From Spongilla lacustris (lineage: Eukaryota; Porifera; Demospongiae; Spongillida; Spongillidae), in contig OX442430.1 of the NCBI GenBank assembly GCA_949361645.1, forward strand, positions 3,924,249 to 3,988,248: a stretch of 64,000 nucleotides of DNA. Reading direction: 5' to 3'. A program made the translations under genes and the position numbers. Of the stretch, positions 8,601 through 40,996 are shown one piece after another (position 1 is the first letter of the stretch; each line of letters begins with the position of its first letter). The notes under the pieces were generated by a model. That model was not told the origin of the DNA and made no database searches. It saw nothing but the letters and a program-made list of their open reading frames with translations.

Positions 8601-11600
8601 ACACCCGGGGGGGGGTTTTTGGTCCAAGAAAATATAATTAGATGTCCTACTAACACCTTACCCTTGCACCTAACATCACACCAGCCTCACCTCATCCTCA
8701 CACCTCATTCATCCTCACACCTCACTCACCCTCACACCTTCCTCCACTCACACCTCACTCATCCTCACACCTTCCTCCACTCACACCTCACTCATCCTCA
8801 CACCTCACTCATCCTCACACCTCCCTCATCCTCGCAACCTCGCACATCCTCACACCTCACCACTCATCCTCACCTTCCTCCACTCACACCTCACTCATCC
8901 TCACCTCACACCCTCACTGCCACCTCATACCCTCACTCATCCCACCTCACACCCTCACTCATCCACACCACACCAGTCTGACCTCACCCATCCTCACACC
9001 CTCACAACCTCACTCATCCTCACACCCTCACTCATCCTCACACCCTCCTCATCATCACACCCTCACTCATCCTCACACCCTCACTCATCCTCACTCATCC
9101 TCACACTCTCACTCATCCTCACACCCTCACATGTCCTCACTCATCCTTTATACTTATAGAGTGTTACCCCACCCACCTTGTCAATTTGATAACCACAGAA
9201 GCCATGTTTATGATTATTTCATGTGTCCCCAACCCATACCCAACCATTTGTATTCTGTGAGGTCCAAAGAATATAAGGCACTGCAGAAATATACAAATTT
9301 ATCGCTTCTCGGCCTCTTGGCTAAGATCAAGTAGAAATAACTACGGGTGATCCCTGGAAGTTTTCTACTTGGTCTGGCCACGGTTCTCAACTGTTACTTG
9401 TCATCCTATTTGTCATCGTTCCCCGCTGCTTCGACAGATTATCTACCTTTCTGCTCGTCCTGCGCGACAAACTACCCTCTTACAAACGAGGAAAACGAGA
9501 ACCGGGAGGTCGAGGGAATAAGCGCCAAGTTACGATTAATACGGTTTTTTTTTCCCTAACTGCAGTAGGGTTTTTTTCCTGGGGACGAGGGTGTGTGTCC
9601 GCCCCCCCAAATAAACACTTCCAGACACCGTAACTTGTTTTTCTTGCCAGAAATGGCATCACCTCTCCCCACACAAGCGGAGACATGGGAAAGACTTTTT
9701 CCATTACCCTCTGCACTAAAGTGTCCACGATGTTCCACATGCATGTGGAACGAAACGTCGTACGCTCGCCATGTACGACAACACTACCCCACCCCCCCTG
9801 TGGTGAAGTGGGTATGCGACGTGTGCCGTGCACCTTTTGACACCAAACAAGCGGTAGCACAACACTACCGCTCTCACAGCTCCGAAGACCCCGTTTCTCC
9901 TGGCCACACCTCCCAATCATCTCCTACCGACCCTACTAGCAGGCTTACACCGACGAACAACTACTCCTGCGAATACTGCGAGAACTCCTTCCCAACAAGG
10001 ATAGGCCTTAGGAACCACGAACGAGCACGCCATCAGGCGCTAGTCTCAGCCTCGCTCTCCAGGGCGGTCTCTGCTTTGACGGACACGCGCAGACCATCCA
10101 CTCAATGGTCGGACGAGGAAGTGGCGAAATTCCTCGCAGCGGTCAACAAGTACGGCCTTAAACACACGTCACTGATCGCTCAATTCATCGGTACGCGCAC
10201 CGCTACCCAAGTGACATATTTTAAGGCAGCTTACAAAAAACGTCACCCTATCTGGGCCATGAGGCACCTCCTTCCGGTAAAAGTCAAAACAACTAACCAA
10301 GGCACGCAATCCTCCCCTTCGACATCCCCAAGCAGCTCACCCTCCATGAGCTCATCGTCAAGATCTCCAACCCTCCCAACCCAAAGGAGTCACCTATCTA
10401 CCCCTAGCCCACAACTGCCTACCTTGGAAGAGGCCACTCCAACCACCTCGCCGGAGTGCCCGCCCACCATACAACCTACTATCTCTCTTCAATCCCGGGC
10501 CTCTCTACAGCTCGCTGACCAGGCACTTCGATTACTGAAAGCCCCACCCACCACCTCCCCCCCCAGAACTCAGGAGCCTTCCTCTACACCCCCCAGTACC
10601 CACCCTGAAGCCCCATCATCAGCTGTCAGACTACATCCAACCCGTTCCCCAACACCAACCCACTCTCCCCTTCCGCGACATGGCCCAGACCCCGCTGAAA
10701 GGGACTACAGCAATGGCTCACCCTTGGCCTACATCACGCCCCGAGCCACTACCCAGTCAACAGCACCCCCCATCAGCCTGGCCTTACATGACCTAGTTGC
10801 CTCCATCAGAAAAGAGGTGGAACTGGGTTGCAAGACCAACCCAAGACGAAGGAGGGACCAGGGCCACCTCTCCTCACCCTCAACGACTGGAGAAATCTCT
10901 CCTCCACCCCCTCCTCAACCAAGAACTCCCTCCCCACCCTGTGACAGCCCAACTACTACCCCACATCACCCCAAGGCCTCCTCGAGATCCATGAGTCATT
11001 CCTCTCCCTCTACAGCTGAACAACCATCTCCTCCTCCATCAAGTCAGTGGGCCCCCCCCCCACCCCCCCACTTGCCATATGGCCCGCCAGCGGTAATTAC
11101 ACAGCCTTCCCTGGGTGGGTTGCACATCACAACCACACACGTCCCTCGAATAGCCCCCACCCCATCCACAAACAATATGAGGGAGGGCAGGTCTGTAGGC
11201 CCCTATAATTGGTATGGTCCCAGTTGGTTAACCAAGCATCCACCCCTCATAGACCAGAACAGAAGTATGGGGCCATGCCCACCACTAGGAAACTGGGTGG
11301 GATGGGGGGAGGGTCCCAGAGGTAAAGGGAAGGAGACACCTTCTAGGCCCCCTATCACTACTTCGGCCCGTCCCGTGCTAAGGGGGAGTAGGATCCGAGG
11401 GCCCACTGGGCCACTCACGGGTAACAACAACAGGGGGGGCCTTGTACCTACAACTGGACAACCAAGTAGAGGGTTCAACCAGCCTTATACTTCTAATGGG
11501 CCTCATCGACACAGAGTAATCCAACCAGGCAGTGGGGAGTCATTAACCCAACCCAACCCTAGTGTCAACCACCTGGGGATAGATGGCGGTGTCCAGCCTG

Positions 11601-14600
11601 GTGGTGGGGGTGGACCTGAGGATGCTTTGTTCCCCCGGGGTCCCCTCTCCATGAACCCTAACGACAATACAGCCCCAGTGAAGCTGTTCTCCAAACTCCT
11701 CCCCTACACCGAGCGCCTTCTCTCTGACACGGAATGGTCCCAGTGGTGTTCGCTACTGGACTGCTGGACCCAGGGCTTCTCCAAATGGTTCTCGGATAGA
11801 TCCAAACCGCCCACACCAACACCCCAAGCGGCCTGGGCGCGCAGACAACAGGACAGGAGACCAAACGAAAGACGCCCAAACACCCAACAGGACAGGTCCC
11901 AAACAAGAAACCGTGCCATAACACGTATGGTCGCAGTGCAGAAGGCCTACCGACAGAATCCAAAGCGCTGCATGGCAATGTTGCGAAAATCTCCTCCACC
12001 AGTGCGTTGCAACATTCCCATCGCAACAGTTGAGACATATTTCTTAGCCAAGCAGAATGTGGCCGACCCCAGCGTCCCCATGGAACCCCCACCATTCCAA
12101 TTGTGGCAGGACACAACTCCCACTGACCTGCTAGAGGTACCCATCACCAGCCAAGAGGTACTAACCACACTGAGGAGAACAAACCTAAACTCTGCCCCGG
12201 GTCCAGACCGCCTGCCATACGCTGCATGGAAGAGGCTTGAACCAATCCCAAACATCGTAACCAGCATCCTGAACACGTGCAGGATCAATGCCAAGATACC
12301 ACCCTCTTGGAAAGGCTCAAATACAATCTTGATCCACAAAGGTGACAGCGTCAACCATCTCGACAATTGGAGGCCCATCGCACTCCAAAACACTCTGTAC
12401 AAAGTGTACGCCTCAATAATAGCTCGACGCTTATCAACCTGGGCCATCAGCAACAACATTGTCAGTCCCTCTCAGAAGGGCTTCCTTCCAGTAGAAGGCT
12501 GCCTGGAGCATGGATTTGTCCTGAAAAGTGTCCTGCAGGACTCACGCCGCAACAAGAGGGAGGCCTGCATAGCCTGGTTAGACTTAAAGGACGCCTTTGG
12601 CTCAGTTCCCCACCCTGTCCTCCTGGAAACCCTGCGTCTCGCTGGCCTCCAAGGTAGCACTCTAGATGTCATCAAAGACATATACACCAATTCAACAACT
12701 TCAGTTAAAACATCTTCGGCCACATCCACCCCAATCATCTGCCGAAGAGGAGTGAAACAAGGATGCCCCCTCAGCCCTATCCTCTTTGACCTCATCATTG
12801 AGGTCATTATAAGAGCAATGGACAGGGTCCCAAAGGCAGGCTACCGAATCGCCCACTCCACAGTCAGGTCGCTCACATACGCTGACGACCTGTGTGCATT
12901 TGCCTCATCCCCCGCCATCATGCAACAGATGCTGACAGGGGCCCAGAACGCGGCAACATGGGCAGGTCTGACATTCAACCCCCGCAAATGTGCAATCCTC
13001 TCCATTGTCCGTGGGAGCGGCAAAAGGCAAAGAGTGGATAGACCCCAACCCTCCATCTCAGGAGAACCAGTACCAACTCTCCCATGGGATGGGCAGTACA
13101 AATATTTGGGGTGCACAAGAGGAGCTGACCCAAACTCCGACCTAACCCAGGCTGCCAATGACTACCTGAGTGACTGTAAAGTCATCCTGGAATCGGAGCT
13201 AACAGACTGGCAAAAAATAGATGCCATCAAACGTTTTGCCAGACCCAGGATGACATACTTACTCCAGAACATGGAACCCACCATCAGCTGGGCCAGGTCG
13301 ATCGACCAAGAGCTGAAATCCCTGGCCAAAATGTGCTTCAAGCTCCCCAACCGTGCGACTACGTCCTACTTCTACGCACAAACCAAGGCAGGTGGCCTGG
13401 CTCTTCCAAGGATAGAGGACGAGATCCATCTATTCAGAATCTCGACTGCATACAAGGTCCTCTTTGCCCAAGGAGACGCCCAACTTCGGGACATCTCAAC
13501 ATCAGCCCTCGGCAAGACTGCTGAGATACGCACTCGAAACCAGAAGTCGGCACAAACCTTCCTCAACGATCCAGCAGACCCTGGTGAGGGACGGCGAGGA
13601 GACATTAAGTCCCTGTGGAGCGAAGTCCGTTCCTCTCTTCAGCACTGCCGAGCAAAATTCAACCTCCAGGACCAGTCAATAACTTGTGACGGCATAACTC
13701 TTGGATGGAGCAAGAGGAGAAACATTACTGGCCTCCTCCGTAACGCCATCCAGAGCAGGTATGTGGAAGACTGGAAGAGATGCCCAGACCAGGGTAGAGC
13801 AGTCATCTGCACGTCAGCCCACCCAGCAAGCAACCATTGGGTCACCACAGGCCGCTACACTAGTTTTGGCGAGTACCGGTTCGCCATCAAGGCCAGATTG
13901 AATCTCCTCACCACCCGCACCTCGCGCTTCAGAGCTGGAGATAGAGTCCCAGATCGCAGCTGTAGACGCTGCAACTCAGAGCAGGAGACCCTCGCTCATG
14001 TCCTGAATCATTGCCCAACCCACGTGGGCTTGCTAAGAAAGAGACACAACAACATCCTAGCTCGTCTCTCCAATGCGATCCCAGTCTGGAGAGGCAAACA
14101 ATTCAAAGAACAGGGGGTCCCGGGAGATAACCTTGGTCTTAAACCAGACCTCGTCATTCTCGATGACACTAAAAAAGAGGCTTTCGTAATAGATGTGACC
14201 ATGCCCTTCGAAGGGAACGGATCCTTTGCAGAGGCCAGACAGGCCAAAGAAAGGAAGTATGGCCATCTTAAAGCTCTCCTTAATGCCAAGGGCTACAATA
14301 GGGTAGAGGTGGATGCCTTTATTGTGGGCCCCCTTGGTAGTTGGGACCCGGCCAACGACCCAGTCCTCCACAAACTTTGCATCAGTCGTCGCTACGCAAT
14401 CCTGTTCCGGAAGCTATGCTGCACTGAGGCACTGAAAGGCAGCTTTGGAATATGGAAGGCATTCACTGAGGGGCACCCCCCTAACTCATAACCCTTTAAC
14501 TCATAACCCTCTATTGTGTATTTTTGCGTGTCTGCAGCACGCCTTCATTTCTTGTTACCTGTAACTGTGTACTACCGGCCCAAATGAGGCCGAGAGAGTC

Positions 14601-17600
14601 GTTCCCTACGACGGGACCACCCCCTTTTGGAGGTGAAGACCTTCTTTGATTTTTCCAATCAATTTTCTTCAACTGTTCTTACGAGTGTAATATCTCGTAT
14701 GAGGACAATGTCCTCACGATATTACATCAATTTTTGAAACCTGGGACTCGGAGTGAAGCTTGCTTCGCCGGCCCCGCGGGTTGCCCCAGTATTGCACTAC
14801 CTCTGGGTGCGGCCCATCCCCTTTAGGGGAACACTATTCTATTCTAATAAAGATAAGACTTTAAGCTAGTTGAAATGTAGAGTGCTTGTGGGTCTAAATT
14901 TCAAATAAATTACTTCCTACTAATTTAACTTCGGTAACTTCATTGTGAACACCTATCCTCTGGGGAAAAAACTCTTAGGCATACCCGAGGGGGGGGCAAA
15001 AAAAAAGAAGTTATAGATACCATCCCAAAAATTCTTAAAACCAAGGGCCAGGTCAACCCCCCCCCCCTCCGCCTTCGACCACGCCCCTTATAATAATTAC
15101 GTAATTGACCACACCTACAATTAAGATAATAGAAAGCAGGCTTCGTTGCAGATTGCTGTTGTAGGTGTTGTCACTTCGTCGCTTGCAGCTGGAGACGCTG
15201 TTTCACTTGTACCATAGAATTTCGCGATACTCAGTCTCTCGTGCCATGACGTAATGTACAGGCTGTAGGCCTATCGAATATTACATCCCTGCTCATCAAT
15301 TAAGGTTTGCGGTACTCCAACAAGATTTTGAAGAACGGCACGCATTATCGTTCATGATTTGGTAAAGTACTCGTTTAAACAATAGCAGGCGGGGCGTGAG
15401 TCGGCATGACCTCATGCATGTTACTTAGTACCAGGAGGTATCCGTGGCTTACTTAGTAGCGTTAGTATAGTTTTTATCTTTACATTGCTTTGCGACGCTT
15501 CAATTGTTGCACTATTGGGTAGTGAATTGGTATGAAGGCCACGCCCACGAATTGTGTCTCAGTCACGTGATAATATGCTTCAATGAAATAGCTTACAATC
15601 GCACTAGATAGGCAGTTAAGCCCTATCTTTGCACGAATTGGACACCCATGAACACTACAAACAATATGATTCCATCATTATGTTGCTGTAGTGCGAGCTA
15701 AAGTGCAAAAAAAAAAAAATTAAGAAAAGTGATTAATTTTTTTTAGAAAAAAATTTTTGGCCAAGACCCCCCCCCCCCCCCCCCCTAACTTTGATACCTC
15801 ATAACTTTTTTTCCTAGACCCCCCTGAAAAAAAGAATAGCATATTCGTGATGCTCTCAATGAGCTCTTCAAAGTTGGGGGATGGTGTCTTCCACTTTGTT
15901 TTTTGCCCCCCCCTCGGGCATACCTCATGCAAAAGTTTTCAGTGGCCATTCAGGAGTCTGTTTGCCTCCAACCCTCTCCCCTACTTTAAATTATGTTACT
16001 TATTTTGGTATCTTATCAAATATATATATAATATATTATAATTATATATATTTGAATTACAATTAGGCATAGAAGCAGAGGGAATTATCCTTTAATCTAT
16101 AAGCACCAGTAAAAACTTCTTTGGCTCTTTGGGCGCATGCTTCTGCCATATGTTTTGAGCTATGGTGGTGCCACACCGTGGGCATATCGACAGTGGAGGG
16201 AGGTGGACCGCTTGCTTGCATGTGACTACTTGCACATGGTACACTCTTGAAGCTAAACTTCAGAGTCATACGTTTATGCGATACACCCACGTGGCGTACC
16301 AGTGAGGCATTAGATGGGTCTGTGAGATAGCATCCAGGGAGGTATGCCCGTGCTGGGACTGGGGACCATCCACAGACTCCTGGTCCAGCTGCATTATCAA
16401 CTCAAGATGTGATTAAATGTGCATGCATTGTAAGTGTGCACTGTGATCTGTATTTCCAGATGATGAGCCAGAAGATGGACCACAGTCCTACATTATTCTT
16501 ACGGGTTTTACAGAAGCTGAACTCATACAAGAGCTTTTCTCTGTGAATACAAAAGTGCATTGTGTAGTGAGATTTCAAAGTGAGAAATCTCCTAAAGGTA
16601 CATTTACACTGTATTTATACAAGTTCAGGATACTATAAGTTGGTTTCATACATGTGCTTGTTCTATCATTAGAAATGTCTGAAGAAGAAGTGAGCAAGAT
16701 TAGAACACAATCAGCCTGCCTGTTAGACTTCTGGTCACTTCTCCATGAGATCTGCTTAAGTGACAAAGCACTAAAGAATGTAGCATTAGTTGATATAATG
16801 GCATCCAGAACTGTAGTTCCAACTGGCAGTGATGAAAAGGTTATATTTTACTTGCACAGAAACACTGTAATATCCCCCTCCAAACTTATTTTTACAGGAA
16901 TTGTATGGAACAGAACTTTTCAACATTCTTGCAGGGAAAATTTATGAGCTGCTGACATTGCAAACCCAGTATAAGCACTACATGAACTTTTTGAACATTC
17001 TAAATGTCCCATTTATCACCAACTTGCAAGCTTCTAATGTTTCTAGTGATAAGGCTCAAGATGTTGATAATAAAGAGAGAAATGTCTCTCATCCACCGAG
17101 GTATGTCATTTCATCCTTACACCAATTGTAATTCTATCTCATTGGTTAAAATTTGCATGTACATGCATGTATTTTTATTTTTTACTTTGCATTTGTAGTG
17201 CTGCTGAACCTTCGATATCTCGTGATCTACGACACTATAATCAGTTGATGTCTTGTGTTCCAGAAGAGAGCACTGATATAGGGTTAATCCTTTATTGCCT
17301 CGTCGAGCAGGTGATCTATAGCATGAAATGCTGATTATAGGTTCCCCACATAATAGATGGACTATATTTAAAGCCATTCATGAAATACATTGTGGACTGG
17401 TAAATCTAGATGCAACTGAGCAAGTAATATTCATACTCATTGCTGCATTAAGCTTAAATTATATGTGGTGTACATGTACATGTATGTGCTTCTATCTCAT
17501 TTCACTTATATGTAATCATACCTCTCTACTATATATGTATATATTCAGGTTGCATTAAATGTACATGTCCAGTCACCGACAAGCAGCAAGAGATCTGAAG

Positions 17601-20600
17601 AAGGGGGCAATGCAAAGTTACAGCAAAAACTAAACAACCTAATAGGTGAACTAGCCCTTACTTCTACTGACAAACAGGTATTGTCATACATGTGTGTGTC
17701 AGATTTTGTATATGTGCACTATCATTGCTTTAAATACAGGAACTGCTCACGTCATGTTCATCTTCCACAAATGCAACCCACTCAATCAAAAGTCAACCTG
17801 TCTTGTGTTCTTGGGATTTGTTACAGCAAAAACTCTGCCATCTCAAGAGCGCAAACCAATTTGATATGCATGGTTCATCAAATCACACATTGGAATCTAT
17901 GTGGTTAAAAAAGCTGCTAAAAACTATCCGCCAGCAAGTCAGGAAGTATAGCTCAGATAATGCCAGTATCAATGCTTTGGATAACTTTTGCATTACCGAA
18001 GACGTTACGCAATCATTGTTGCAAAATGCCTTAACTTCACTTACACATGAATACCTGGACACTCAAAATGCATCTTTTGCTCCAAAACATTCTATGCAAC
18101 TTCAAAATGTATTATTGGACCACCCACTGTCACTGAAACTGAAAGACAACTCCATCAATACTGAGGTCTTACGACCATCTGTGTTTGCACCAGTTGAGTT
18201 CTGTGTCCAAGAGCACTTAGATGAGTCTGCTGCTGTGCAACAGCTTCATGCACTTCAGCTCACAACTCACCCATACCTTGAATGCTTTCACCACAAGCAC
18301 CTCAAGTCAGGAATGATTGTTGCTCACACTGGATATGATGGAAAACCTGTGCACCAGTATGATTGGCTTGCTCAATCCCATTTTCCGTTAGGATTTCAAG
18401 ACTATATACAATATGTTGCTAAAACCTTTGGAGATGATGTCGATAAAGCCGCTGCATTGGAAGCTGAAAGAATTGCTGCAGCACATGACATCGATATTCA
18501 GCAAAATGAAACTCAAGAAAGTACACAACATGAGCTGCCACCTGAATCAGCTAAAATTGCTGCCACCCCCAGTGGAAAGAAAAGCAAAGCTGAAGCTTCG
18601 GTAGCCTCTTCGAAAGATTTATCTTGTACAGAGCCTTCCGGTGTGGATCAGAAAACTGTCAAAGCACTTTTTAATGCCTACGATCTTGGTGGAGCACCTA
18701 TTTTGTGCAAGGGACTTGTGCGGACTGCATTTACAGCAGATGGGTCCCAAATTCGAACAGAAACACTGGAATTTATCAGTAAACCAGTAACTCTGTCCAC
18801 CACTGTTTTGGATGGTGCAAATACGATTTCAACATACCTTGTGCGTGGAAAAAAAGAGAAGGCACAGAAAGTTAATAAAAATACTGAGCAAATTCCTCAA
18901 GATGATGCATCAAAAGCAGAACCCATCCCACCTCCTCCTCCTGCATTGCTGTCAACCGTACCTCAGCCAATTGATCAAATTATTTGTTGCGGCCTGCAAG
19001 CCTCTTTTAAGGATAGTGTTACTGTATCCTTGAGCCACTTTGGACCAGAAGGGAATGGAGAGTTCCCGTTGAAACCTGAACTTCCCAAAGTTTTAAGAGA
19101 AGCAAATTCTGCCATTTCAAGCAGACCTCAATCACAAGCAACACCACCTCCGCCACAAAAATTGAGTAAAAAGCAACTTGAACAGCAACAGCAAATGATA
19201 GAAGATCAGAAGCGACTAGAGGAACAGCGCAAAAGGGCACAGATTGAATACGCTGATAAGTGGAATTCCTTGGCTATGCAATGCAAATATCAGCAATTGT
19301 TTGCAAGCAATTCATACGGACTGCACATTCATTGTCAAGTGTTTTCTGACCCAACGTCAGATCCTACCTGTATTGATAGGGATGGCAGTTATATTGTTGT
19401 TCGACAGACCTATCATTGTAAAGGCAGTGGAACACAAGACTGTGAGCAGATACTACTGCAATCTGCATATCAGGAACACCACCGATGCTATTTGCCTAAT
19501 GGTTCAATTATTTGCTTCAAGGATCAATCCATTGTGATTAAAAATGCCGATGGCAGCTCTCTAAGGACAGCTAACGTGCATGAGCATGAACAATATGCAA
19601 AGCTATCATCATCTCAAGCAAGAATGAAAAGTACACAAACTCAAGAAGTCTCTGACAGGATGAAGTCTGCTACATCCGCCATATCATTTGCATCAGACTT
19701 CACACGTGGTGATGACATAAACTTGGACAAATCCTTGTGGATAGTAACAACTGCAGCAGGTGAACGATTTTTTTGGATGGACTCATCATCAACTGCAGTA
19801 AAGATTGAAGATATAAGAACCACTGAGACTGCAGATGGTCGCTTACCTGTTGATACTTCAAATGAAACCACAACCAATACTTCAGTACTCAAGTTGAGTC
19901 CAATCAGGGTGTGTAGAGCTACTGATCCTGTAACAAAAGAAGTAAGTTTTTAAAATATAATTGCACTTAAATTGTACATGTAATGTACTCTTGTAGACAC
20001 AGTGTTCACATTCCTTAAATTTGGCTTGTTCACCTGAAGTGCATTTCATTATTACTTGATGAACTAGTGAGATGCCACATGCACATACATGTACATTTAA
20101 TTACACACATATGTACATGTATAGGAGTAGTGTCCCTCAGTGGTTTAGATTTTTGTTTGTACACGTATAGGAAATTGTCACCAGAGAGGATGACACTGTG
20201 ATTTTGTACCAACCGGATGGTTCATATATTTCTGAATTTGCTGATGGAACAAGAATTACCACAGTGTTGAAGAATGGAACGAAACCTTCGGAAATTGTTG
20301 CAGAGTGTCCTGGATATGCAAGGGTACACTACATCTTCACTGCAAATTTATGCACAATAACATTTCCTGATTTGTCAACGATTGACTGTAATACTGATGG
20401 GAGCTACTGCATTAGAAAAATTGACAACTACAGCCTTCAGATAGACAAGAATGGGGATGCTTCATACATTAATATGATAGAATCAGTAAAACAAAAATAC
20501 AATATTTCTCACCTTGGCACTACTGATCTGTTGCAGTATTGTGATTGTAAGGGAAATAATTTCAATGTAAACCTGTCTGGGAAAATATCTGTGAGCAACG

Positions 20601-22143
20601 AAAAGACTAGTGTTCCTGTTCACTCTAATTTTCTCCCTTTGTACTGCTGGGTGCCTGGAGATGCCCCACCTTTCCTACTGCTCCCAGAATCCACTTTCCA
20701 GCAAGCAATGTCTCAAGCAAAAACAGAATTGGATTCTGTAATGATTCAGGATGCTGTTCCATCAGGATGTATAGCATCATCTACAACACTGATCAAACCA
20801 TGCTCATCTGGACTACTTCAAAACTATCAGGTACCGTACATAAGAGATACACTCATTCCAGCTAATGTTCATGGACCACAGCTCATTTTTTCTAACAAAA
20901 GGAGTATTCCAACATGCAAGGCCCTAAAATATCAACATTTTGCATGTAGGGTTCCTATTAACAAAACAGTACGGCAGCAAGTCCTGCAAGGAATCATCAA
21001 ATATATGCAGTGGAGAGAAAAGCAAGATGCTGCTAGCAATTCACTGTTGCCAGATACGAAAAATGAAAACGAGGAACTCAAAAATGTACTAGCCCTTGAA
21101 TCGAAATGGAAGGATGCAATTCCTACTTCACTTTTCAACACTGAAATATTGCATGAAAAATACAAAGTAAGTATGCTTCCTAAACCTACACTCAAAAGTC
21201 AATTATTGGAATTTGTTGCACCAATGCCACAAAAACGCAAATCTGAACAGATTGATGATGTAAGAAAAGTACTACGAGAAAACAAACATCCACCTTACTT
21301 TTCACTGCACAAGTTAGAAGTTCACAATCCTAATGACGTTAAAACACCAACTGTCAACCTCCATGTAGCCACCCCAGCAATACAAACCTCAAGTCATACA
21401 GCAACTACATGTAGCTCAGGTAAACAAGATTCCAGCATCCAAAATAGCAATCAGCCAGGATCAAAGGTACATTAACTTGAGGTAATAGTGTGATCAGTTG
21501 TGATGAGCCTGCATTGTATTATGTATCTATCAGCTGTTTATCTTTAATGTACATGTACATTAGACATAATACAGGACGTCTAATGTAAATATATGTAGTT
21601 AAGTCCTTTAATTGATTTCAGGTTACTGTATTAAATTGATTATGTGTTTTCCATCCAGTTGCAGTTTAAAGAAAAAATTTCCATGTGTCAAACCACTGCT
21701 CAAAAAACAGATCTTGTGCATAAAGGGCTTGGATTAATTCCAGATGAGGTCAACTTTGGTACGATAGTTGACACAGGTATATATAGCCAAACGGTGACTG
21801 TGAGAAACAATGGCATAAAACCTGCTAGGCTTAAAGTCAAGCAACTACATGGCCCAATGGAAATAAAGCTGATATACACACCTGGACCAGTAAGTTTGAA
21901 TAAAATGTAATTACTTCTGCATGTAACTAAAAACTATTTAACATTGCAATTGTTACCTCGTACATGTGTAAGTATAATAACATACACTCACAGATTGCTG
22001 CTGGCATGTCAAGATCAATTATCATTGAGATGACTGTCTCAGAAAATTCGAGTCCTATTCTGGATGGCTGTAAGCTGGAGATAAGTTCTGAGGCAGGAAC
22101 ATTATTGGTCCCAGTGAAGGCAAATGTACAGCTCAAATGTTAA
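5666..22143 (+). CDS. SPAG17: SPAG17 / PF6-like ciliary central-pair protein (complete, 14 exons)
   Basis: Exons, each with AG/GT borders and consistent phase: 5666-5752, 5811-5951, 6651-6752, 6812-6940, 7559-7739, 16460-16597, 16673-16839, 16898-17100, 17199-17310, 17549-17677, 17740-19941, 20171-21466, 21659-21889, 21994-22143. They sum to 5,268 nt, about 1,755 residues, against roughly 2,200 in human SPAG17. Diagnostic stretches: KKRGEEEDNVKYIDDEPEDG, RHYNQLMS..IGLILYCLVEQV, VTREDDTVILYQPDGSY followed by FADGTRITT, and a C-terminal ASH/MSP-like module beginning PDEVNFGTIVDTGIYSQTVT. The family protein (Chlamydomonas PF6) builds the C1a projection of the axonemal central apparatus and is needed for ciliary motility. 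Lysine- and proline-rich linkers (LSKKQLEQQQQMIEDQKRLE) lie near 19,160-19,240. Intron 5 (7740-16459) is unusually long because it holds the U2/retrotransposon insertion and a second element. An alternative donor at ~21,420 could shorten exon 12. Confidence 0.95.
7740..8640 (+). other. First part of SPAG17 intron 5, no gene seen
   Basis: Intron sequence after the GTAAGT donor at 7740. It is AT-rich with scattered ACATGTA/TACATGT words (for example 8,503-8,528) and a TGTGTG-rich patch at about 8,218-8,262. Short open frames here show no conserved protein signature and no usable exon borders. It ends in a G-run at 8,607-8,614 just before the tandem-repeat block. Confidence 0.7.
8660..9140. repeat. 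Tandem CTCACTCATCCTCACAC-type minisatellite
   Basis: Degenerate head-to-tail units built on CTCAC, CTCATC and CTCACAC run for almost 500 bp, with higher-order variants that insert CTTCCTCCACT. The strand is almost free of G. The block ends about 160 bp upstream of the 5' end of the U2 copy. The 120-residue open frame (8,619-8,981) is a by-product of the repeat (His/Pro/Ser/Leu-rich) and not a gene. Confidence 0.9.
9301..9332 (+). pseudogene. RNU2: U2 snRNA 5' fragment (nt 1-32), left flank of retrotransposon
   Basis: The 32 bases starting ATCGCTTCTCGGCC and ending CTAAGATCAAGT match the invariant 5' end of spliceosomal U2 snRNA, including stem-loop I, with one difference in the four-base loop region. 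The match stops at U2 nt 32, just before the GUAGUA branch-site recognition sequence. Retrotransposon 5' UTR sequence follows. The remaining 3' part of the same U2 copy resumes at 14,673, so this is one U2 gene interrupted by an insertion. I could not identify a proximal sequence element upstream with confidence. Confidence 0.95.
9333..14672 (+). mobile_element. Full-length RLE-type (R2-group) non-LTR retrotransposon inserted in U2 snRNA, Utopia-like
   Basis: The ~5.34 kb insert is bounded on both sides by U2 snRNA sequence, which fixes its ends. It has a ~260-320 bp 5' UTR, one long frame (9593-14491) and a ~180 bp 3' UTR with no long poly(A). The single frame with N-terminal zinc fingers, a central reverse transcriptase and a C-terminal restriction-like endonuclease is the architecture of the R2/NeSL group. 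Sense orientation relative to U2 and a site-specific location fit target-primed reverse transcription. The published RLE lineage that targets U2 is Utopia; the other U2-targeting family I know, Keno, is Tx1-like with an APE endonuclease and does not fit. About 7 bp of the target (U2 nt 33-39) are absent, a small target-site deletion. No direct target duplication is visible. Confidence 0.93.
9593..14491 (+). CDS. Retrotransposon polyprotein: C2H2 fingers, Myb-like, reverse transcriptase, restriction-like endonuclease
   Basis: Intact frame of 1,632 codons. The ATG at residue 21 (9,653, context GAAATGG) is the likelier start. Domains in order: three C2H2 fingers (C44/C47/H60/H64; C75/C78/H91/H95; C126/C129/H142/H147); a Myb-like helix block about 168-218 (QWSDEEVAKFLAAVNKYG); a long Ser/Pro/Thr-rich linker to about 760; a reverse transcriptase with SAPGPDRLPYAAWK, WRPIALQNTLYK, GVKQGCPLSPILFD and catalytic YADD at 1096-1099; a CCHC knuckle C1457/C1460/H1469/C1474; and a restriction-like endonuclease with PD at 1518-1519 and D1534 (KPDLVILDD, FVIDVTMPF). 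In the R2 group the fingers and Myb bind target DNA, the endonuclease nicks it and the RT primes from the nick. No stop or frameshift is seen and all visible catalytic motifs are present, so the copy could be active. Its GC-rich coding differs from the AT-rich host introns. Confidence 0.95.
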   Translation: MCPPPQINTSRHRNLFFLPEMASPLPTQAETWERLFPLPSALKCPRCSTCMWNETSYARHVRQHYPTPPVVKWVCDVCRAPFDTKQAVAQHYRSHSSEDPVSPGHTSQSSPTDPTSRLTPTNNYSCEYCENSFPTRIGLRNHERARHQALVSASLSRAVSALTDTRRPSTQWSDEEVAKFLAAVNKYGLKHTSLIAQFIGTRTATQVTYFKAAYKKRHPIWAMRHLLPVKVKTTNQGTQSSPSTSPSSSPSMSSSSRSPTLPTQRSHLSTPSPQLPTLEEATPTTSPECPPTIQPTISLQSRASLQLADQALRLLKAPPTTSPPRTQEPSSTPPSTHPEAPSSAVRLHPTRSPTPTHSPLPRHGPDPAERDYSNGSPLAYITPRATTQSTAPPISLALHDLVASIRKEVELGCKTNPRRRRDQGHLSSPSTTGEISPPPPPQPRTPSPPCDSPTTTPHHPKASSRSMSHSSPSTAEQPSPPPSSQWAPPPPPHLPYGPPAVITQPSLGGLHITTTHVPRIAPTPSTNNMREGRSVGPYNWYGPSWLTKHPPLIDQNRSMGPCPPLGNWVGWGEGPRGKGKETPSRPPITTSARPVLRGSRIRGPTGPLTGNNNRGGLVPTTGQPSRGFNQPYTSNGPHRHRVIQPGSGESLTQPNPSVNHLGIDGGVQPGGGGGPEDALFPRGPLSMNPNDNTAPVKLFSKLLPYTERLLSDTEWSQWCSLLDCWTQGFSKWFSDRSKPPTPTPQAAWARRQQDRRPNERRPNTQQDRSQTRNRAITRMVAVQKAYRQNPKRCMAMLRKSPPPVRCNIPIATVETYFLAKQNVADPSVPMEPPPFQLWQDTTPTDLLEVPITSQEVLTTLRRTNLNSAPGPDRLPYAAWKRLEPIPNIVTSILNTCRINAKIPPSWKGSNTILIHKGDSVNHLDNWRPIALQNTLYKVYASIIARRLSTWAISNNIVSPSQKGFLPVEGCLEHGFVLKSVLQDSRRNKREACIAWLDLKDAFGSVPHPVLLETLRLAGLQGSTLDVIKDIYTNSTTSVKTSSATSTPIICRRGVKQGCPLSPILFDLIIEVIIRAMDRVPKAGYRIAHSTVRSLTYADDLCAFASSPAIMQQMLTGAQNAATWAGLTFNPRKCAILSIVRGSGKRQRVDRPQPSISGEPVPTLPWDGQYKYLGCTRGADPNSDLTQAANDYLSDCKVILESELTDWQKIDAIKRFARPRMTYLLQNMEPTISWARSIDQELKSLAKMCFKLPNRATTSYFYAQTKAGGLALPRIEDEIHLFRISTAYKVLFAQGDAQLRDISTSALGKTAEIRTRNQKSAQTFLNDPADPGEGRRGDIKSLWSEVRSSLQHCRAKFNLQDQSITCDGITLGWSKRRNITGLLRNAIQSRYVEDWKRCPDQGRAVICTSAHPASNHWVTTGRYTSFGEYRFAIKARLNLLTTRTSRFRAGDRVPDRSCRRCNSEQETLAHVLNHCPTHVGLLRKRHNNILARLSNAIPVWRGKQFKEQGVPGDNLGLKPDLVILDDTKKEAFVIDVTMPFEGNGSFAEARQAKERKYGHLKALLNAKGYNRVEVDAFIVGPLGSWDPANDPVLHKLCISRRYAILFRKLCCTEALKGSFGIWKAFTEGHPPNS
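14673..14820 (+). pseudogene. RNU2: U2 snRNA 3' portion (nt ~40 to end), right flank of retrotransposon
   Basis: It begins CTGTTCTTA, matching U2 from nt ~40. It continues through stem-loop IIa (ACGAG..CTCGT), IIb (GAGGACAATGTCCTC), the Sm site AATTTTTGA at 14,729-14,737, stem-loop III with GAAGCTTGCTTC, and stem-loop IV with CCAGTATTGCACTACCTCTGG, ending near CATCCC. The 148 nt here plus the 39 nt before equal the usual ~187-188 nt length, so the 3' half is complete. A loosely 3'-box-like AATAAAGATAAGAC lies at 14,846-14,859. The gene cannot make functional U2 because of the insertion and loss of GUAGUAU. Confidence 0.96.
14977..15925. mobile_element. Non-autonomous element with inverted termini and C-tracts
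   Basis: The ends are inverted: AGGCATACCCGAGG plus a G-run and CAAAAA at 14,977, against CCTCGGGCATACCT preceded by TTTTTTG and a C-run ending at 15,925 (12 of 14 outer bases pair). The interior has C-tracts (15,057-15,069; 15,768-15,785) and no coding capacity. About 200 bp of its right part (15,628-15,915: GAACACTACAAA, GTGATGCTCTCAATGAG, AAGTTGGGGG) recur at 26,710-26,905, so it belongs to a family. It lies 156 bp downstream of the interrupted U2 copy, in the same SPAG17 intron. Superfamily not recognised. Confidence 0.7.
15926..16459 (+). other. End of SPAG17 intron 5
   Basis: It contains a TATATAAT-rich patch (16,019-16,052) and a minus-strand open stretch, 16,290-16,063, encoding a 75-residue Cys/His/Ser-containing peptide with no splice context that I can support. 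The intron closes at TATTTCCAG before 16,460. No gene is called. Confidence 0.55.
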
Positions 22144-27100: not shown

Positions 27101-30100
27101 TCTTGGCTTAGGTGTACTCTCAGCAGGCACCAGAACACCAGTAACTGAAGAACCTGCAGATGCAAATACAATCATAACATTTGCCCATGTGCTGTTACAT
27201 TTTTTTACCAGTGAGTGTTGCTGGGTCAAACCAGTGGTCATACTCCAAAATTTCATCCGGCTCAAGACGAGGAACACGAGTGCGATGGGTTCTCCTTACC
27301 CCCGGTGTGAAATTCTGCTTAGGTTTGATTGGGACCCTATGATACCTCTTCCCACCAACGGTGGTGGTGTCCAGGAGGTCCTTATCAATGACCTCAACAG
27401 CACCAGCCTTCTTTAGGCGCTTCAGGCCAGCAGGTATAACACTCCTTCTTTTCCTTTTTCTACCAGATGGTGGGGGAGACTGTGTATTGGTTTGCTCAGG
27501 GCCTTTTGCCCCACTACGAAGATTCTGTGAAGGCAGTTGCCTTTTCGTTTTTTCCAAGGTCTGTGATTCTCCTCCTGGTGACTGAAACAATCTTCTCACT
27601 ATTGTTTCTCCTTGCTTGTCCCCATTGTCCAGTTCCTCCCCACTTGCACCTTTTTCTTCATTGCTCTCTTCCTCTTGGTCATTTTCCAACTGCCCTTGGT
27701 CATCCTCTATCTGAACTTCTGCCCCTGGTACATCTTTTCGCTCCTTTACTGGCACATCCTCCTCCATCACCTCCTCCCTCTCACTACCCTCTAATTCCTT
27801 TGCTTTATTTCTTGACCTCCTACCTAGGGCTGATACATCTTCAGGAACAAACCACTTGCCTGGACTGCCAGAGGGAACAGATCTCCTGGACCGTCTCTTC
27901 TCCAAGGCTCCGTCACCTTCATCCTGAACAGTTTTCTTAGGAGGTCTACCTCTGGGCCTCTTTTGCTCAACGTTATGAGACTCACTATTTTCTTCAGCAA
28001 CCTCTGTGACATGTGTGGACTTCCTGTGCCGTAAATCTCTGTTCTGTGGTCCTTGTGTGTCTTCTTCCTGATCACCCTCTGATGCATCTGTAACTGCTGC
28101 ATCCACAATACTAGTATCTCTCCGTTGAGATTGATGCGTCTTCTCCAAGGCCTCATCACCTTCATCCTGAACAGTTTTCTTAGGTGGTCTACCTCTGGGC
28201 CTCTTTTGCACAATATTTTGTGCACTATGAGACTCACCACTTTCTTCAGCAACCCCCCTGGCATGTGTGGACCTCCTGTACCGTAAATCCCTATCCTGCG
28301 GTCTTTCTGTGTCTTCTTCCTGATCACCCTCTGACACATCTGTAACTGCTGCATCCACAATACTTGTATCTTTCCGTTGAGATTGATGTGTCTTCTCCAA
28401 GGCCTCATCACCTTCATCCTGAACAGTTTTCTTAGGTGGTCTACCTCTGGGCCTCTTTTGCACAATATTTTGTGCACTATGAGACTCACCACTTTCTTCA
28501 GCAACCCCCCTGGCATGTGTGGACCTCCTGTACCGTAAATCCCTATCCTGCGGTCTTTCTGTGTCTTCTTCCCCCTCTGACGCATCTGTAACTGCTGCAT
28601 CCACAATACTTGTATCTTTCCGTTGAGATTGATGTGTCTTCTCCAAGGCCTCATCACCTTCATCCTGAACAGTTTTCTTAGGTGGTCTACCTCTGGGCCT
28701 CTTTTGCACAATATTTTGTGCACTATGTGACTCACCATTTTCTTCAGCAACCCCCCGGGCATGTGTGGACCTCCTGTGCCGTAAATCTCTATCCTGCGGT
28801 CTTTCTGTGTCTTCTTCCTGATTACCCTCTGACGCATCTGTAACTGCTGCATACACTATACTTGTATCTTTCCGTTGAGATTGATGTGTCTTCTCTAAGG
28901 CCTCATCACCTTCATCCTGAACAGTTTTCTTAGGTGGTCTACCTCTGGGCCTCTTTTGCACAATATTTTGTGCACTATGAGACTCACCATTTTCTTCAGC
29001 AACCCCCCTGGCATGTGTGGACCTCCTGTACCGTAAATCCCTATCCTGCGGTCTTTCTGTGTCTTCTTCCTGATCACCCTCTGACGCATCTGTAACTGCT
29101 GCATCCACAATACTTGTATCTTTCCGTTGAGATTGATGTGTCTTCTCCAAGGCCTCATCACCTTCATCCTGAACAGTTTTCTTAGGTGGTCTACCTCTGG
29201 GCCTCTTTTGCTCAACGTTATGAGACTCCCTATTTTCTTCAGCAACTCCCCTGGCATGTGTGGACCTCCTGTGCCATAAATCTCTATCCTGCGGTCTTTC
29301 TGTGTCTTCTTCCTGATCACCCTCTGACACATCTGTAACTGCTGCACCCACAATACTTGTATCTCTCCGTTGAGATTGATGTGTCTTCTCCAAGGCTCCA
29401 TCAGCTTCATCCTGCACAGTATTTTTAGGTGGTCTACCTCTGGGTCTCTTTTGCTCAATATTTTGTGCATTATGAGAGTCACCATTTTCTTCAGCAATCT
29501 CTATGACATGTGTGGACTTCCTGTGCTGTAAATCTCTGTTCTGTGGTCTTTCTGTGTCTTCTTCCTGATCACCCTCTGACACATCTGTAACTGCTGCATC
29601 CACAATACTTGTATCTCTCCGTTGAGATTGATGTGACTTCTCCAAGGCTCCATCACCTTCACCCAGCACAGTTTTCTTGGGTGGTCTACCTCTGGGTCTC
29701 TTTTGCTCAATATTTTGTGCATTACGAGAGTCACCATTTTCTTCAGCAACCCCCCTGGCATCTGTGGACTTTCTGTGCCGAAAATCTGCATCTTGTGCTC
29801 TTTGTGTGTCTTTTTCCTGATCACCCTCTGACACATCTGTAAACACAATACTTGTATCTTTCCGTTGAGATTGATGTGTCTTCTCCAAGGCCCTATCACT
29901 TTCATCCTGTTCAGGTGGTCTACCTCTGGGCCTCCTTTGCTCAATATTTTGTGTTACACGAGAGTCACCATTTCCTTCAGCAACCCCTCTGACATATGTG
30001 GATCTGTTGTGCCATAAATATCTACTCTGTGGTGGATGTGTGCCTTTTTCCTGATCACCCCTGAACATCACTGTAACTGCTGCATTCCCACTCTCCACCT

Positions 30101-31280
30101 TCTCCCCACTTCCATCTTTTTCTTGATTGCTCTCTACCCTTTGGTCATTTTCTAACGGCCCTTGGTGATTCTTCATCTGAACTTCTGCCCCTGGTACATC
30201 CTTTGGCTCCTTTACTGGCACATCCTCCCTCTCACTACCCTCTAATTCTTTTGCATTATTCCTTCTCCCGAGTGCCTCACCTTTGCCTTGAGTAGGTACA
30301 ACCTTCTTGGTACCTGCCAATCCAATCAGCCTCCTTAATAGGGCCAGCTGTTCAGAACTATCCACATCGCTGTCAGTATCACTACTGTCATTAAATACAA
30401 TTAATGGTCTTTGGTGAACCTTCTTTTCTTCCTCTACAGCTTTCGTCTTCACCTTCTCCTCTTCAGCAGCTTTCTTCTTCACCTTCTCCTCTTCAACAGC
30501 TTTCTTCTTTGCCATGTCCTCCATCTCTGCAGCCTTCCTCTTTGCCTTCTCCTGCCTAATCAGTTCCTCTACATCTGTTTCAGGAGAGCTGTCACGGTCT
30601 GAGGATGACAAGGTCAAAATCAGTGCAGGTTTGTGAAGGAAACTACAAATCAAGCAACTACCCTTATAACTGACTGTTTTGCAAGGTACTCTGACTAAGG
30701 CAGGAGTTACTAACCATACTGCCAATGACCTCAAAAAGATAAACCTTTTAACCATTTGAGAGCCTTGCAATCCACTCATGACTCATGGTCCACCAAGAGA
30801 GTTATATATGCTGTACATTTCAATACATGCATTGCCAACACCCAACAATTTTCTAGTGCATTGTACAAAACGTCACCTTAGTCTTCTAAACCTGACAAAG
30901 CTGTGTGAGCACCCCAAACACCGACAGACACAGTAAAGGCGTTCTCAAAGTACATTGTACATACAATAGTTCCTGACCGAGCTCTGCTCTGCAAGTACCA
31001 AGCTAGTACGGTAGGCATATAAACTCCGCCAACTTATATTAGCTATAGTGTATCTGAAATACTGCAACGCACCGATATCTTTGAAATATTCACTAATAGG
31101 TTCAAACCCATGGCTGTCTCTTTGGAAAGACTTGCGCTTGTGATACGGTAGGCTACAAGAACATAATGTTCACTTAAGAGAACATCTCGATGATGCAGTC
31201 CTACGTACCCGATATACAAGTTTGAATTTCCTACGTGCTTCGTCTTCCTGTTCATTCCCGCTGTAAATAACGCACATCAT
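24152..31280 (-). CDS. CENPC: CENP-C, inner kinetochore protein, with nine AT-hook repeats
   Basis: Exons: 31280-31209, 31136-31073 (both tentative but in phase), 30598-27209, 27153-~27091, 24750-24696, 24634-24456, 24399-24309, 24252-24152 (stop). Family hallmarks seen: a basic N-terminus (ARRKFKLVYR); a central CENP-A nucleosome-binding type motif RRSRRSVPSGSPGKWFVPED; the CENP-C motif VRRTHRTRVPRLEPDEILEY followed by DHW, then GVLVPAESTPKPRRK; and a C-terminal cupin dimerisation fold (STSNGRITFDG, YELFFYVVKGRVLVTI, HIPQGSLYSVRNL). The protein bridges CENP-A chromatin to the outer kinetochore. The large exon holds nine ~80-residue repeats (~28,000-29,950), each with an AT-hook core RPRGRPP, which I do not know from other CENP-C proteins. 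Two coiled, Lys/Glu-rich stretches (KKAVEEEKVKKKAAEEEK) precede them. The junction between the 27,153 and 24,750 exons does not fit in phase, so a small exon in that intron is probably missed. Confidence 0.9.
25600..26910. mobile_element. Fold-back element in CENPC intron, same family as 14,977-15,925
   Basis: A long imperfect palindrome is centred near 26,310. CCTCACTGAGATCTCACACA and its complement TGTGTGAGATCTCAGTGAGG lie at 26,211-26,230 and 26,409-26,428, and the pairing extends out to about 25,990 and 26,650 (GATAGGGTCC / GGACCCTATC). The central loop is TAACCCCCTAGTGGTTATTT and its complement. C-tracts lie at 25,671-25,696 and 26,641-26,660. The right end (26,710-26,905) is homologous to the right part of the element at 14,977-15,925. 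No coding capacity. It sits in the intron between the CENP-C-motif exon and the cupin exons. Confidence 0.75.
27900..29960 (-). repeat. In-frame tandem repeats (~240-255 bp) encoding AT-hook units
   Basis: Nine head-to-tail copies inside the large CENPC exon. Each encodes a unit of the form KRPRGRPPKKTVQDEGDEAL, then KTHQSQR, DTSIVDAAVTD, EGDQEEDTERPQDRDL, RSTHARGVAEEN. The outer copies (nearest 29,950 and 27,900) are more diverged and the inner ones nearly identical, as expected for recent unequal exchange or gene conversion. One unit lacks the DQE codons. Because unit lengths are multiples of three, two other frames also stay open over long stretches (for example 28,852-27,824); those are shadows. 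Confidence 0.95.
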
Positions 31281-31772
31281 AATACTTATACGCATGCGCA
31301 AAATTATTTTGGCGGGAATTGATTTCTCGGCTTTATCGCATACAGACAGTAGCCCGTGATGAAGTCGATATACTAGTAATAAGCAGGCATTTGACATTTA
31401 AATGTCAATGTACATGTTTGTTGGTAGTCTGGCCCGACTGATGGGTTAAAAACGGGTCAACCTGTCATAGGCTCTGCGCTGTCAGAGTAACTAAGTAGTG
31501 CGGTTACTAGTTGCGTGTGTGCTTATGAAGAGTCCTAAATGCATGTCGCTACGAGATTTATTGGGCAGGAGACATGGATCAGGGGCGGATCCAGGATTTT
31601 GGGAAAGGGGGGGTCTGATAAATATATACACAACTGGGTGAGGGGTGACAGCAAAGGCCTTAGGGGGTCTGGCCGTGGGTGAGTGCTGATAGCTCCCCCA
31701 GTGGGGTCTGGGGCGAAGACCCATCCACTATTTTACGTTTGCGTTTATTTAGCATCTGCCATATAATATAAT
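31281..31772. other. CENPC upstream region with hAT-like terminal motif
   Basis: The CENPC promoter should lie at the start of this stretch (GCATGCGCAAAATTATTTTGG at ~31,292 and TTGGCGGGAATT at ~31,308, the latter resembling an E2F site). At 31,572 a CAGGGGCGGATCCAGGATTT motif begins, which resembles the terminal repeat of many animal hAT-type elements; I could not find its partner end. No gene seen. Confidence 0.5.
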
Positions 31773-32959
31773 ATGGGACAGTGTCCAGCAAAATCGGGCT
31801 TGTGGGGTTATAATTTTATCACTATAAAAATTGCACGTTACACTTAACAGCACATCTTCGCAACGGTACAACCTTTTTCTTTCAAATTTCGTACACTTAT
31901 TCCCACACCATTTCTCTCTGTGGAAATCGATTTTTGTAATCTACGTATTTTCCGTGCAGCGGGTACAGCATTCGTTAACCCTGCGGGTTAGAAATCCACA
32001 TTTCTCGAGGTGCGAGTGTTGAAAACGCGTCAAATTCGGAACATACATAGTGAAGTCCTGTAGCTATTGATTTGTTCAGATCGTTGATTTGTATATTATC
32101 CGTTACGGTAATATGGCAGTGCAAAGTTAGTGCATATTTCCCGCTCCATTCGCGCCACCAATGTATCTTAACGCTTCCCGTTCTTCCGAGCACATGAATA
32201 TGCAATTTATATCTGGCTCCGCCTATTCTCCGCCCCAAAGACCCAGTACCACTTTTGCTTAAGTTGCTGGAAATTAAAGTGGAAACAATCTCGTTACGGC
32301 TGGCTTTGACTTTACAACTAGCGATTAGCGAAGTAAAGTTAACAAGTAATTGAGGCGATCGTGCAATGCACGTGGACTCTCGTGCCAACTCGGTACGTAC
32401 GCACTCATAGCCACATTATAATACATCGCAGAAATCAGGAGGGTGGTGATTGATTCATTTAGGAAAAGGCTTTCCGGGGACAAGTACGATTACTAAGCCT
32501 TACTGTATACTACATGTACTATAAGTCTTGCTGCCTTCTTTGCACAACGTTAGCAACACAAACTAGTGCTATGGTGCAGTGCCAGTTATAAGAAGTGCTG
32601 TTACTGTGCTTGTAAAGTAGTGCTATAGTGTTGTGATTGTGAAGTAGTGCTATTGTGCAGTACCCGTTATGGTGCTGAAGTAGTGCTATGGTGCTGATTA
32701 TGTAGTGCTATGGTGCTGATTATGTAGTGCTATGGTGCTGCATTTATGAAGCAGAGTGCCTCTGTGTGACGTAGTGCTATGGTGCAGTGCTAGTGAAGTA
32801 GTGCCATCGTTCTGTGCTTGTGAAGTAGTGCTATGGTGCTGATTGCATACTGATATGGTGCAGTGCTTGAGACGTAGAGCTATGGTGCAGTACTAGTGAA
32901 GTAGTGCCATCTTTCTGTGCTTGTGAAGTAGTGCTATGGTGCTGATTGCATACTGATAT

Positions 32960-39000: not shown

Positions 39001-40601
39001 GCACAACACCATAGCACTACTTCACATGCTTCACAAACACAGCACCACAGCATTGCTTAGCACTGCACAATATCACTACTTGATAAACGCAGCACCATAG
39101 CACTACACAATAAGCACCACAGCAAGCATAGCACCATAGCACTACTTCAGAAGCACGGTGCCACCATCAGGTGTGTAGTAAGGTATTTAAAAGTGGGGGG
39201 TACAAATAAATGTGTCTATAGGCTGAGGACCTGACATAAATTTTAGGATGGTGTATAGATCGTACTGAATAAAGGTGAGGGGGGGGGGGGGGGGGGGGCA
39301 ATACCCCTCTATGACAATAAAATGAGGGTAATGGCCCCCATGTCCCTTGCTTCCTCGCACAAGCACTGCACCATAGCACTAAGTCACAAGCACTGCACCA
39401 TAGCACTACGTCACAAGCACTGCACCATAGCACTACGTCACAAGCACTGCACCATAGCACTACATCACAAGCACTGCATCATAGCACGTCACAAGCACTG
39501 TACCATCGCACTACGTCACAAGCACTGCACCATATCAATATGCAATCAGCACCATAGCACTACTTCAAAAGCACAGAACAATAGCACTACTTCAAAAGCA
39601 CAGAACAATGGCACTACTTCACTAGTTCATAAATGCAGAGTGCCATAGCACTACACAATCAGCACCATAGCACTACTTCACCCATGGCACTACTTCAGCA
39701 CCATAACGGGTACTGCACAATAGCACTACTTCACAAGCACAACACTATAGCACTACTTTACAAGCACAGTAACAGCACTTCTTATAACTGGCACTGCACC
39801 ATAGCACTAGTTTGTGTTGCTAACGTTGTGCAAAGAAGGCAGCAAGACTTATAGTACATGTAGTATACAGTAAGGCTTAGCAATCGTACTTGTCCCCGGA
39901 AAGCCTTTTCCTAAATGAATCAATCACCACCCTCCTGATGTCTGCGATGTATTATAATGTGGCTATGAGTGCGTACGTACCGAGTTGGCACGAGAGTTCA
40001 CGTGCATTGCACGATCGCCTCAATTACTTGTTAACTTTACTTCGCTAATCGCTAGTTGTAAAGTCAAAGCCAGCCGTAACGAGATTGTTTCCACTTTAAT
40101 TTCCAGCAACTTAAGCAAAAGTGGTACTGGGTCTTTGGGGCGGAGAATAGGCGGAACCAGATATAAATTGCAATTCATGTGCTCGGAAGAACGGGAAGCG
40201 CGTTAAGATACATTGGTGGCGCGAATGGAGCGGGAAATATGCACTAACTTTGCACTGCCATATTACCGTAACGGATAATATACAAATCAACGATCTGAAC
40301 AACTCAATAGCTACAGGACTTCACTATGTATGTTCCGAATTTGACGCGTTTTCAACACTCGCACCTCGAGAAATGTGGATTTCTAACCCGCGGGGTTAAC
40401 GAATGCTGTACCCGCTGCACGGAAAATACGTAGATTACAAAAATCGATTTCCACAGAGAGAAATGGTGTGGAAACAAGTGTACGAAATTTGAAAGGAAAA
40501 GGTTGTACCGTTGCGAAGATGTGCTGTTAAGTGTAACGTGCAATTTTTATAGTGATAAAATTATAACCCCACAAGCCCGATTTTGCTAGACACTGTCCCA
40601 T

Positions 40602-40996
40602 ATATATATATACACCTTGTGCCCAGTCCCTCACTAGAACATCGATCAGATGGGCAAATGTGATCCATTTTGGCAAAAATGACAATAAGGTCAGGGTATG
40701 CCCAAAAAACACCTGGTTTGTAATGCAAAAGGAGTTACATGCACATATTTGAACTAAAACTTCAGTCATGTAGCTGTCCATGAGTGAATTGATATCCAAA
40801 CCAAAGTAAGAATAACTTTAGAAGTCTGTGTTGAATTTGTTATTAACCTGTTACTAGGACAACAGACTGTCCCCAGACCCAGTTATTGAGCAGTCATAAC
40901 GTTATTAAACGTGGAAGAAGAGTCTTATCTTTTGTGCTTGTACATGTTCAGAATATTACATTGCACATGATACAAACATGTTTAGAAGAAAAGAGT
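40602..40996. other. Gap between palindrome and SUPT5H 3' end
   Basis: It starts in TATATATATATA. No gene seen. It should contain the SUPT5H 3' UTR (transcribed leftwards from 40,997). A TTAATAACG-type AT-rich stretch near 40,890-40,905 could serve 3' end formation, but no canonical AATAAA is obvious. Confidence 0.55.

Follow-up and report, generated by a model that had tools for sequence, protein, structure and literature searches.

The window, i.e., the whole 64-kb stretch of DNA analysed (C17:3924249-3988248, in an assembly of 248,560,934 bases and 51 contigs), contains a gene for the U2 snRNA, which splicing requires, split by one non-LTR retrotransposon. The features of the locus are as follows.

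9271..9276, + strand: ATATAA box, 25-30 nt 5' of the U2 gene, in the conserved U2 upstream region
9301..9342, + strand: 5' part of the split U2 gene, host U2 nt 1-42 (pattern, Rfam, intact host U2 genes)
9343..14670, + strand: non-LTR retrotransposon, 5,328 bp (both boundaries common to four fully read copies)
9362..9375, + strand: 14 nt able to pair with U2 nt 24-37 of the upstream flank, with one G-U (0/300 shuffles)
9653..14491, + strand: single ORF, 1,612 aa from ATG 9653 (translation)
9722..9784, + strand: C2H2 zinc finger 1 (motif; AlphaFold2 model)
9815..9877, + strand: C2H2 zinc finger 2 (motif; AlphaFold2 model)
9968..10033, + strand: C2H2 zinc finger 3 (motif; Pfam)
10103..10213, + strand: Myb domain PF00249 (Pfam, 27.3 bits, cut-off 24.4; fold)
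12332..13117, + strand: reverse transcriptase (RT) domain with YADD (Pfam, motif, fold)
13961..14014, + strand: CCHC zinc knuckle (motif)
14141..14257, + strand: restriction-like endonuclease (RLE) core, KPDL...VIDVT...K (motif, fold)
14492..14670, + strand: 3' UTR with a predicted terminal hairpin at 14634-14671 (folding z -2.4 and -2.1)
14671..14822, + strand: 3' part of the split U2 gene, host U2 nt 39-190 (Rfam RF00004, intact host U2 genes)

The start of the U2 5' segment at 9301 was located with a 28-position pattern tolerating up to three mismatches, which had a single, exact match and none in 100 shuffles. Rfam gave a partial U2 match to this segment (31.2 bits, E 1.1e-4), which is below the gathering score of 46, and recognised the 3' part as RF00004 (107 bits, E 1.3e-20); the Rfam start of 14640 for the latter is a forced global start, the true start being 14671-14673. 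Compared with intact host U2 genes, the 5' flank ends at U2 nt 42 and the 3' flank begins at nt 39, so that AACT (U2 nt 39-42) is found on both sides of the element and no U2 letters are lost. To judge from these letters, AACT may be either a 4-bp target duplication or microhomology. The first-pass annotation had described a U2 gene interrupted by an intact element, and the pattern, Rfam and the open frame confirm it. Both U2 halves that it recognised are present, with limits that had to be replaced by those listed above, and the apparent gap at U2 nt 33-39 arose because the host U2 is non-canonical there. The ATATAA box was present in all 16 U2 upstream regions compared by eye.

The reading frame of the element is open without interruption over 9569-14491 and encodes three C2H2 fingers, Myb, RT, CCHC and RLE, and the continuous C2H2/Myb/RT/RLE frame noted earlier is thus upheld by Pfam and motifs. 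RVT_1 and Myb were above the Pfam cut-off in the window protein, C2H2 and zf-RVT were below it, and no APE domain (PF03372) was detected by Pfam at E up to 1. The predicted fold of the Myb region is Myb/SANT, and the RT/RLE fold is R2-like with an R2-type RLE, the core of which we take, partly from PD..D motifs, to lie at 14141..14257. At the 5' end, the 14-nt stretch complementary to the upstream U2 flank presumably has a role in pairing with it, and a 5' hairpin that includes the U2 flank had a z of about -4 in a region picked after the fold was seen. Rfam revealed no ribozyme at the element 5' end. Two crude scans for an HDV-like ribozyme there gave one negative and one weak result, the latter equalled by 9 of 200 shuffles in distinct P1 and by 14 of 200 in matches, with a flank of U2 nt 1-32 only.

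A scan of the assembly with the Rfam U2 model yielded at least 28 rows, 11 of them at 129.7-149.6 bits and 17 lower, and the U2 genes cluster on four contigs. All 10 genes read among the 11 high-scoring rows were full-length U2. Two of the 17 lower rows represent the 5' halves of further split genes, inside L024 and L025, and in 13 of the remaining 15 an element stands directly before U2 nt 39-40. Four of these 13 rows (window, L020, L021 and L022) carry the family of the window element, designated family A; eight were assigned by similarity to the 3' end of a second family, family B (L023, L024, L025, L027 with two, L028, L030 and L032); and L026 was counted via an RT frame whose end lies about 560 nt ahead of U2. 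The last two had no clear junction: the U2 of L031 is degraded, with remnants of an RT nearby, and that of L029 is degraded too, with nothing there that matches the window protein. The whole-genome search for U2-flanked copies at the same position, proposed with the original observation, has therefore supported it, and insertion at a fixed site in several different U2 genes is seen directly.

Family A sits in U2 genes on three contigs, C11, C17 and C18. A DNA scan of the assembly identified five full family-A 3' ends, all of which adjoin U2 starting at host nt 39, and one 55-nt fragment elsewhere (C17:7005167); the 3'-end scans of both families are limited by similarity and distant copies may escape. 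Site-specific U2 insertion by an RLE-type element, as first suggested, agrees with these five of five ends. The 5' and 3' junctions are the same in all four fully read copies, the fifth (L028) having been read over its last 1,261 bp. The element of L020 (C11) differs from that of the window by no mismatch and one gap, a single base of a C-run, in 5,329 columns, whereas only 57 of 300 nt of their upstream flanks align, at 75%, and 158 of 400 nt of their 3' flanks align at 94%, mostly U2 itself. Identity to the window element was 99.3% for L022 and 98.8% for L021 (C18), and among the four copies the frame is uninterrupted only in that of the window. Near-identical elements in unlike flanks make the window and L020 insertions look independent and recent. 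L020 and L022, both on C11, have flanks identical over 300 and 400 nt and elements that differ, which indicates that duplication, recombination or conversion also acts there. With its intact frame and these signs of recent movement, the window element is a complete copy that has apparently been active in recent time, in line with the earlier description of it as possibly active.

Family B has the same U2 3' junction as family A and target duplications of 20-21 bp. The 5' flank of both L024 and L025 extends to about U2 nt 59 and the 3' flank begins at nt 39, giving a 21-bp duplication, and that of L030 is 20-21 bp. A Myb-positive frame of 1,540 aa is present in L024, L025 and L028, and the L024 frame shares 38% identity with the window protein across RT and RLE. 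Thirteen of 18 family-B 3'-end matches (one of them merely 70% alike) are followed by U2; the other five lack recognisable U2, L054, L057, L058 and L061 having at most AACT(GT) and L063 none. Seventeen of the 18 lie within U2 regions of C1, C11, C17 and C18. L028 contains a tandem insertion, within one U2 gene, consisting of a family-A 3' end, 21 nt of U2 and then family B. None of three family-B 5' ends (L024, L025 and L030) has a stretch complementary to U2.

The host U2 is itself unusual at the target. Seven of the 10 intact genes read have GATCAAGTAGAAATAACTGTTC, and the region reads GATCAAG-TAGAAATAA-CTGTTC in the host as against GATCAAG-TGTAGTAT-CTGTTC in canonical U2. Canonical AAGATCAAGTGTAGTATCTGTTC, with up to three mismatches, was not found in the whole assembly except at one place on C3 with three mismatches. 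GTAGAAA occupies the position of canonical GTAGTA, beside the cut, and U2 nt 1-37, including GTAGAAA, are invariant across 10 aligned high-scoring genes. Within U2 nt 1-69 only nt 38-39, at the presumed nick, vary between chromosomes (TA, A-, AC). Stem IIb differs compensatorily among the host genes (by eye, 10 genes), and U12 had one match over the cut-off in the assembly. According to part of PMC8531310, GUAGUA is conserved and is the sequence with which the branch site pairs. The host core would be GUAGAA in place of GUAGUA, derived by one change, a two-base loss before it and added bases after it. Among literature titles and abstract openings, no altered U2 branch-site strand was reported for a sponge; if confirmed for the host U2, such an alteration would be a rarity in an RNA that is nearly universal. 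It is conceivable, and on the whole doubtful, that the host U2 was remodelled at the cut site, via repeated cleavage and repair or as an escape, and that the element followed. That reading takes in the complementarity of the element 5' end to nt 24-37 of the altered U2, and if true, a spliceosomal RNA that is nearly universal would owe its altered form to a selfish element.

The nearest named homologues of the window protein are from E. muelleri, as we read the 'Em' identifiers, and are 31-55% identical among the best 120 of 318 matches. A tree based on RT and RLE, with 115 sequences of which three were R2 from PDB and 112 other proteins, placed the window protein within a 42-sequence clade that holds all E. 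muelleri members and stands apart from R2 (split support 97.2/100); its nesting among Ephydatia muelleri proteins bears out the sponge affinity suspected from the letters. Close tree neighbours come from Camponotus floridanus, Solenopsis invicta and Ladona fulva, species that are included in Utopia Table 1 in the consulted part of Kojima and Jurka 2015 (PMC4640811), and their link to Utopia is circumstantial. A resemblance of the head, comprising three fingers and Myb, to that of R2 was obtained by phmmer over ZnF and Myb, by a custom profile and by Foldseek, for which the top three matches to the predicted head were all R2. An R2-clade element might accordingly have switched its target from 28S rDNA to U2, given the likeness of the ZnF3 and Myb head to R2 lineage A, an AU test on RT alone with 48 sequences that did not reject a sponge and R2 grouping (p 0.294), and unrooted trees in which the sponge clade sits between R2 and an arthropod clade. 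Such a switch is nevertheless unlikely. The separation of the 42 sponge-clade sequences from R2 was unchanged with protist-like outgroups (L001-L003), and APE outgroups with RT alone left R2 outside at 95.1/87; APE and protist-like outgroups combined gave unsupported splits. Scores of about 500 bits to arthropod and nematode relatives (best 120 of 318) are far above the 245 bits to R2, with databases and query lengths that differ, and U2 is the Utopia site. The element thus appears Utopia-like at its target and R2-like in its head, and is provisionally filed as a Utopia-like, Myb-bearing variant.

Two other explanations concern the copies rather than the lineage. A generic element could have landed by chance in a dead U2 copy, and the window itself does hold one copy only; this was rejected because insertions at the same position recur in the data of the genome itself, with an element at the same nucleotide in 13 of the 15 U2 places that are interrupted or degraded. 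Conserved motifs both upstream and downstream of the host U2 genes, together with the lack of an A-tail visible by eye after the window U2, also speak against a pseudogene, and a fortuitous junction is extremely improbable. Spread by duplication of U2 units or by gene conversion instead of retrotransposition would explain the identical flanks of L020 and L022 and suits the clustering of U2 genes on four contigs. As the origin of the copies it is quite improbable, in view of the near-identical elements within divergent U2-gene flanks on C11 and C17 and of the occurrence of family A on three contigs.

Overall, the locus is very probably the result of fixed-site insertion into U2 genes by an RLE element that is Utopia-like in its target and R2-like in its head, presumably through target-primed reverse transcription (TPRT). 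The steps can be drawn by analogy with R2 as presented in part of PMC3774820. The element RNA would probably be made as a U2 co-transcript, the ZnF-Myb head would bind U2 gene DNA, and the RLE would place a nick between U2 nt 38 and 39 in the bottom strand. The 3' UTR hairpin may be recognised by the RT, with the first strand primed from the nick as in R2, and second-strand synthesis would take place at an offset top-strand cut. This second cut would set the duplication, lying a few bases away in family A and about 20 in family B. The 5' end of the RNA might base-pair with the U2 sequence that precedes the element, and the uniform 5' junction fits an RNA that retains upstream target letters. 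In R2, according to part of the same source (PMC3774820), the target flank can join the P1 stem of a ribozyme.

The combination of a Utopia-type target and an R2-type ZnF-Myb head appears to be newly described here, in U2 genes of what looks like a sponge; no report of U2-inserted sponge elements was found among the papers listed in the literature searches. Although the part of PMC13188248 consulted describes Myb-bearing sponge elements as non-site-specific, the present families suggest that such elements can insert at a specific site. With an R2-type head on a U2-targeted element, one can also test whether specificity for rDNA came after the Myb head and which region of the protein determines the insertion site. 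R2 proteins are under development for targeted gene insertion.

Several known systems resemble the window element in part. Kojima and Jurka have described Utopia, in the part of PMC4640811 consulted, as RLE-type elements in which a single protein usually carries zinc fingers at its N terminus, an RT, a ZF and an RLE, and which lie in U2 with the downstream part beginning at nt 39. Few copies are retained in U2 in oomycetes and wasps, the top-strand cut varies, giving duplications of 20 bp in reptiles and none in arthropods, and Nasonia has tandem insertions (PMC4640811). The window element likewise lies in U2 with downstream U2 from nt 39 and its single protein has zinc fingers at the N terminus, an RT, a ZF at the C terminus and an RLE instead of an APE, and the tandem insertion of L028 recalls that of Nasonia. 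It differs from Utopia in the Myb domain after the three zinc fingers and in the alteration of the host U2 at the target, and sponges are absent from the Utopia Table 1 taxa (PMC4640811). A 2026 survey of R2 (PMC13188248, Genome Biol 2026) has, in the part consulted, excluded Myb-bearing proteins from Utopia, mentioned Utopia-like sponge proteins without Myb, and reported Myb-bearing sponge elements, including those of E. muelleri, as having variable flanks that are closer to those of Utopia. The window element shares with the Porifera R2-homologous elements of that survey the Myb domain and a finger pair resembling R2 lineage A, whereas both Myb-bearing families here, in contrast to that account, are in U2. 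The ZnF-Myb head and RT/RLE fold are similar to those of R2 lineage A (zebra finch and Platysternon; PDB 9nl3, 9nl2 and 9dou), which is separated from the sponge clade by a long RT branch. Unlike R2, which targets 28S rDNA, the window element has U2 on both flanks. Keno, which we take to belong to the Tx1 clade, has an APE endonuclease, unlike the window element with its RLE. The U2 3' junction of Keno, as described in part of PMC4640811, is nonetheless the same as that of the window element.

The intact U2 genes of the window's own assembly are nearly uniform over nt 1-69, with variation at nt 38-39 only among the 10 that were read (L012-L019, L034, and L036). One own-genome locus, L028, is a single U2 gene with nested insertions of two families, that of the window element (A) and a second U2-inserted family (B). 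At this locus, the U2 fragment immediately behind the family-A copy holds the family-B element.

The window contains the following additional features.

Repeats and host genes in the window
8685-9147, tandem array with a unit of 17-18 bp, CCTCACTCATCCTCACA(C), just 5' of the U2 gene
17734-21475 (+), long host frames
27195-30782 (-), AT-hook-containing frame of 1,195 aa
31771-40603, large inverted repeat whose two outer arms (31771-32691 and 39682-40603) are 99% complementary
46472-55944 (-), exons of the transcription elongation factor SPT5, with SPT5 domain matches
59683-60000 (+), CNOT9/Rcd1 exon

The inverted repeat is a foldback-like element containing tandem arrays with 22- and 27-bp units, and a 252-bp tandem array makes up most of the AT-hook frame, in which the protein repeats at ~84 aa. 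SPT5 domains were matched by three of the four pieces tested. The long host frames, which we take to be SPAG17-like, gave zero matches in Pfam; the first has unnamed homologues with identity up to 70%.

A Lachnospiraceae MAG contains three RLE retrotransposon contigs of eukaryotic look (L001-L003, used as outgroup sequences in trees), which are probably contamination.

All 10 of the intact U2 genes that were read carry GTAGAAA where the near-universal branch-site strand GTAGTA is expected.
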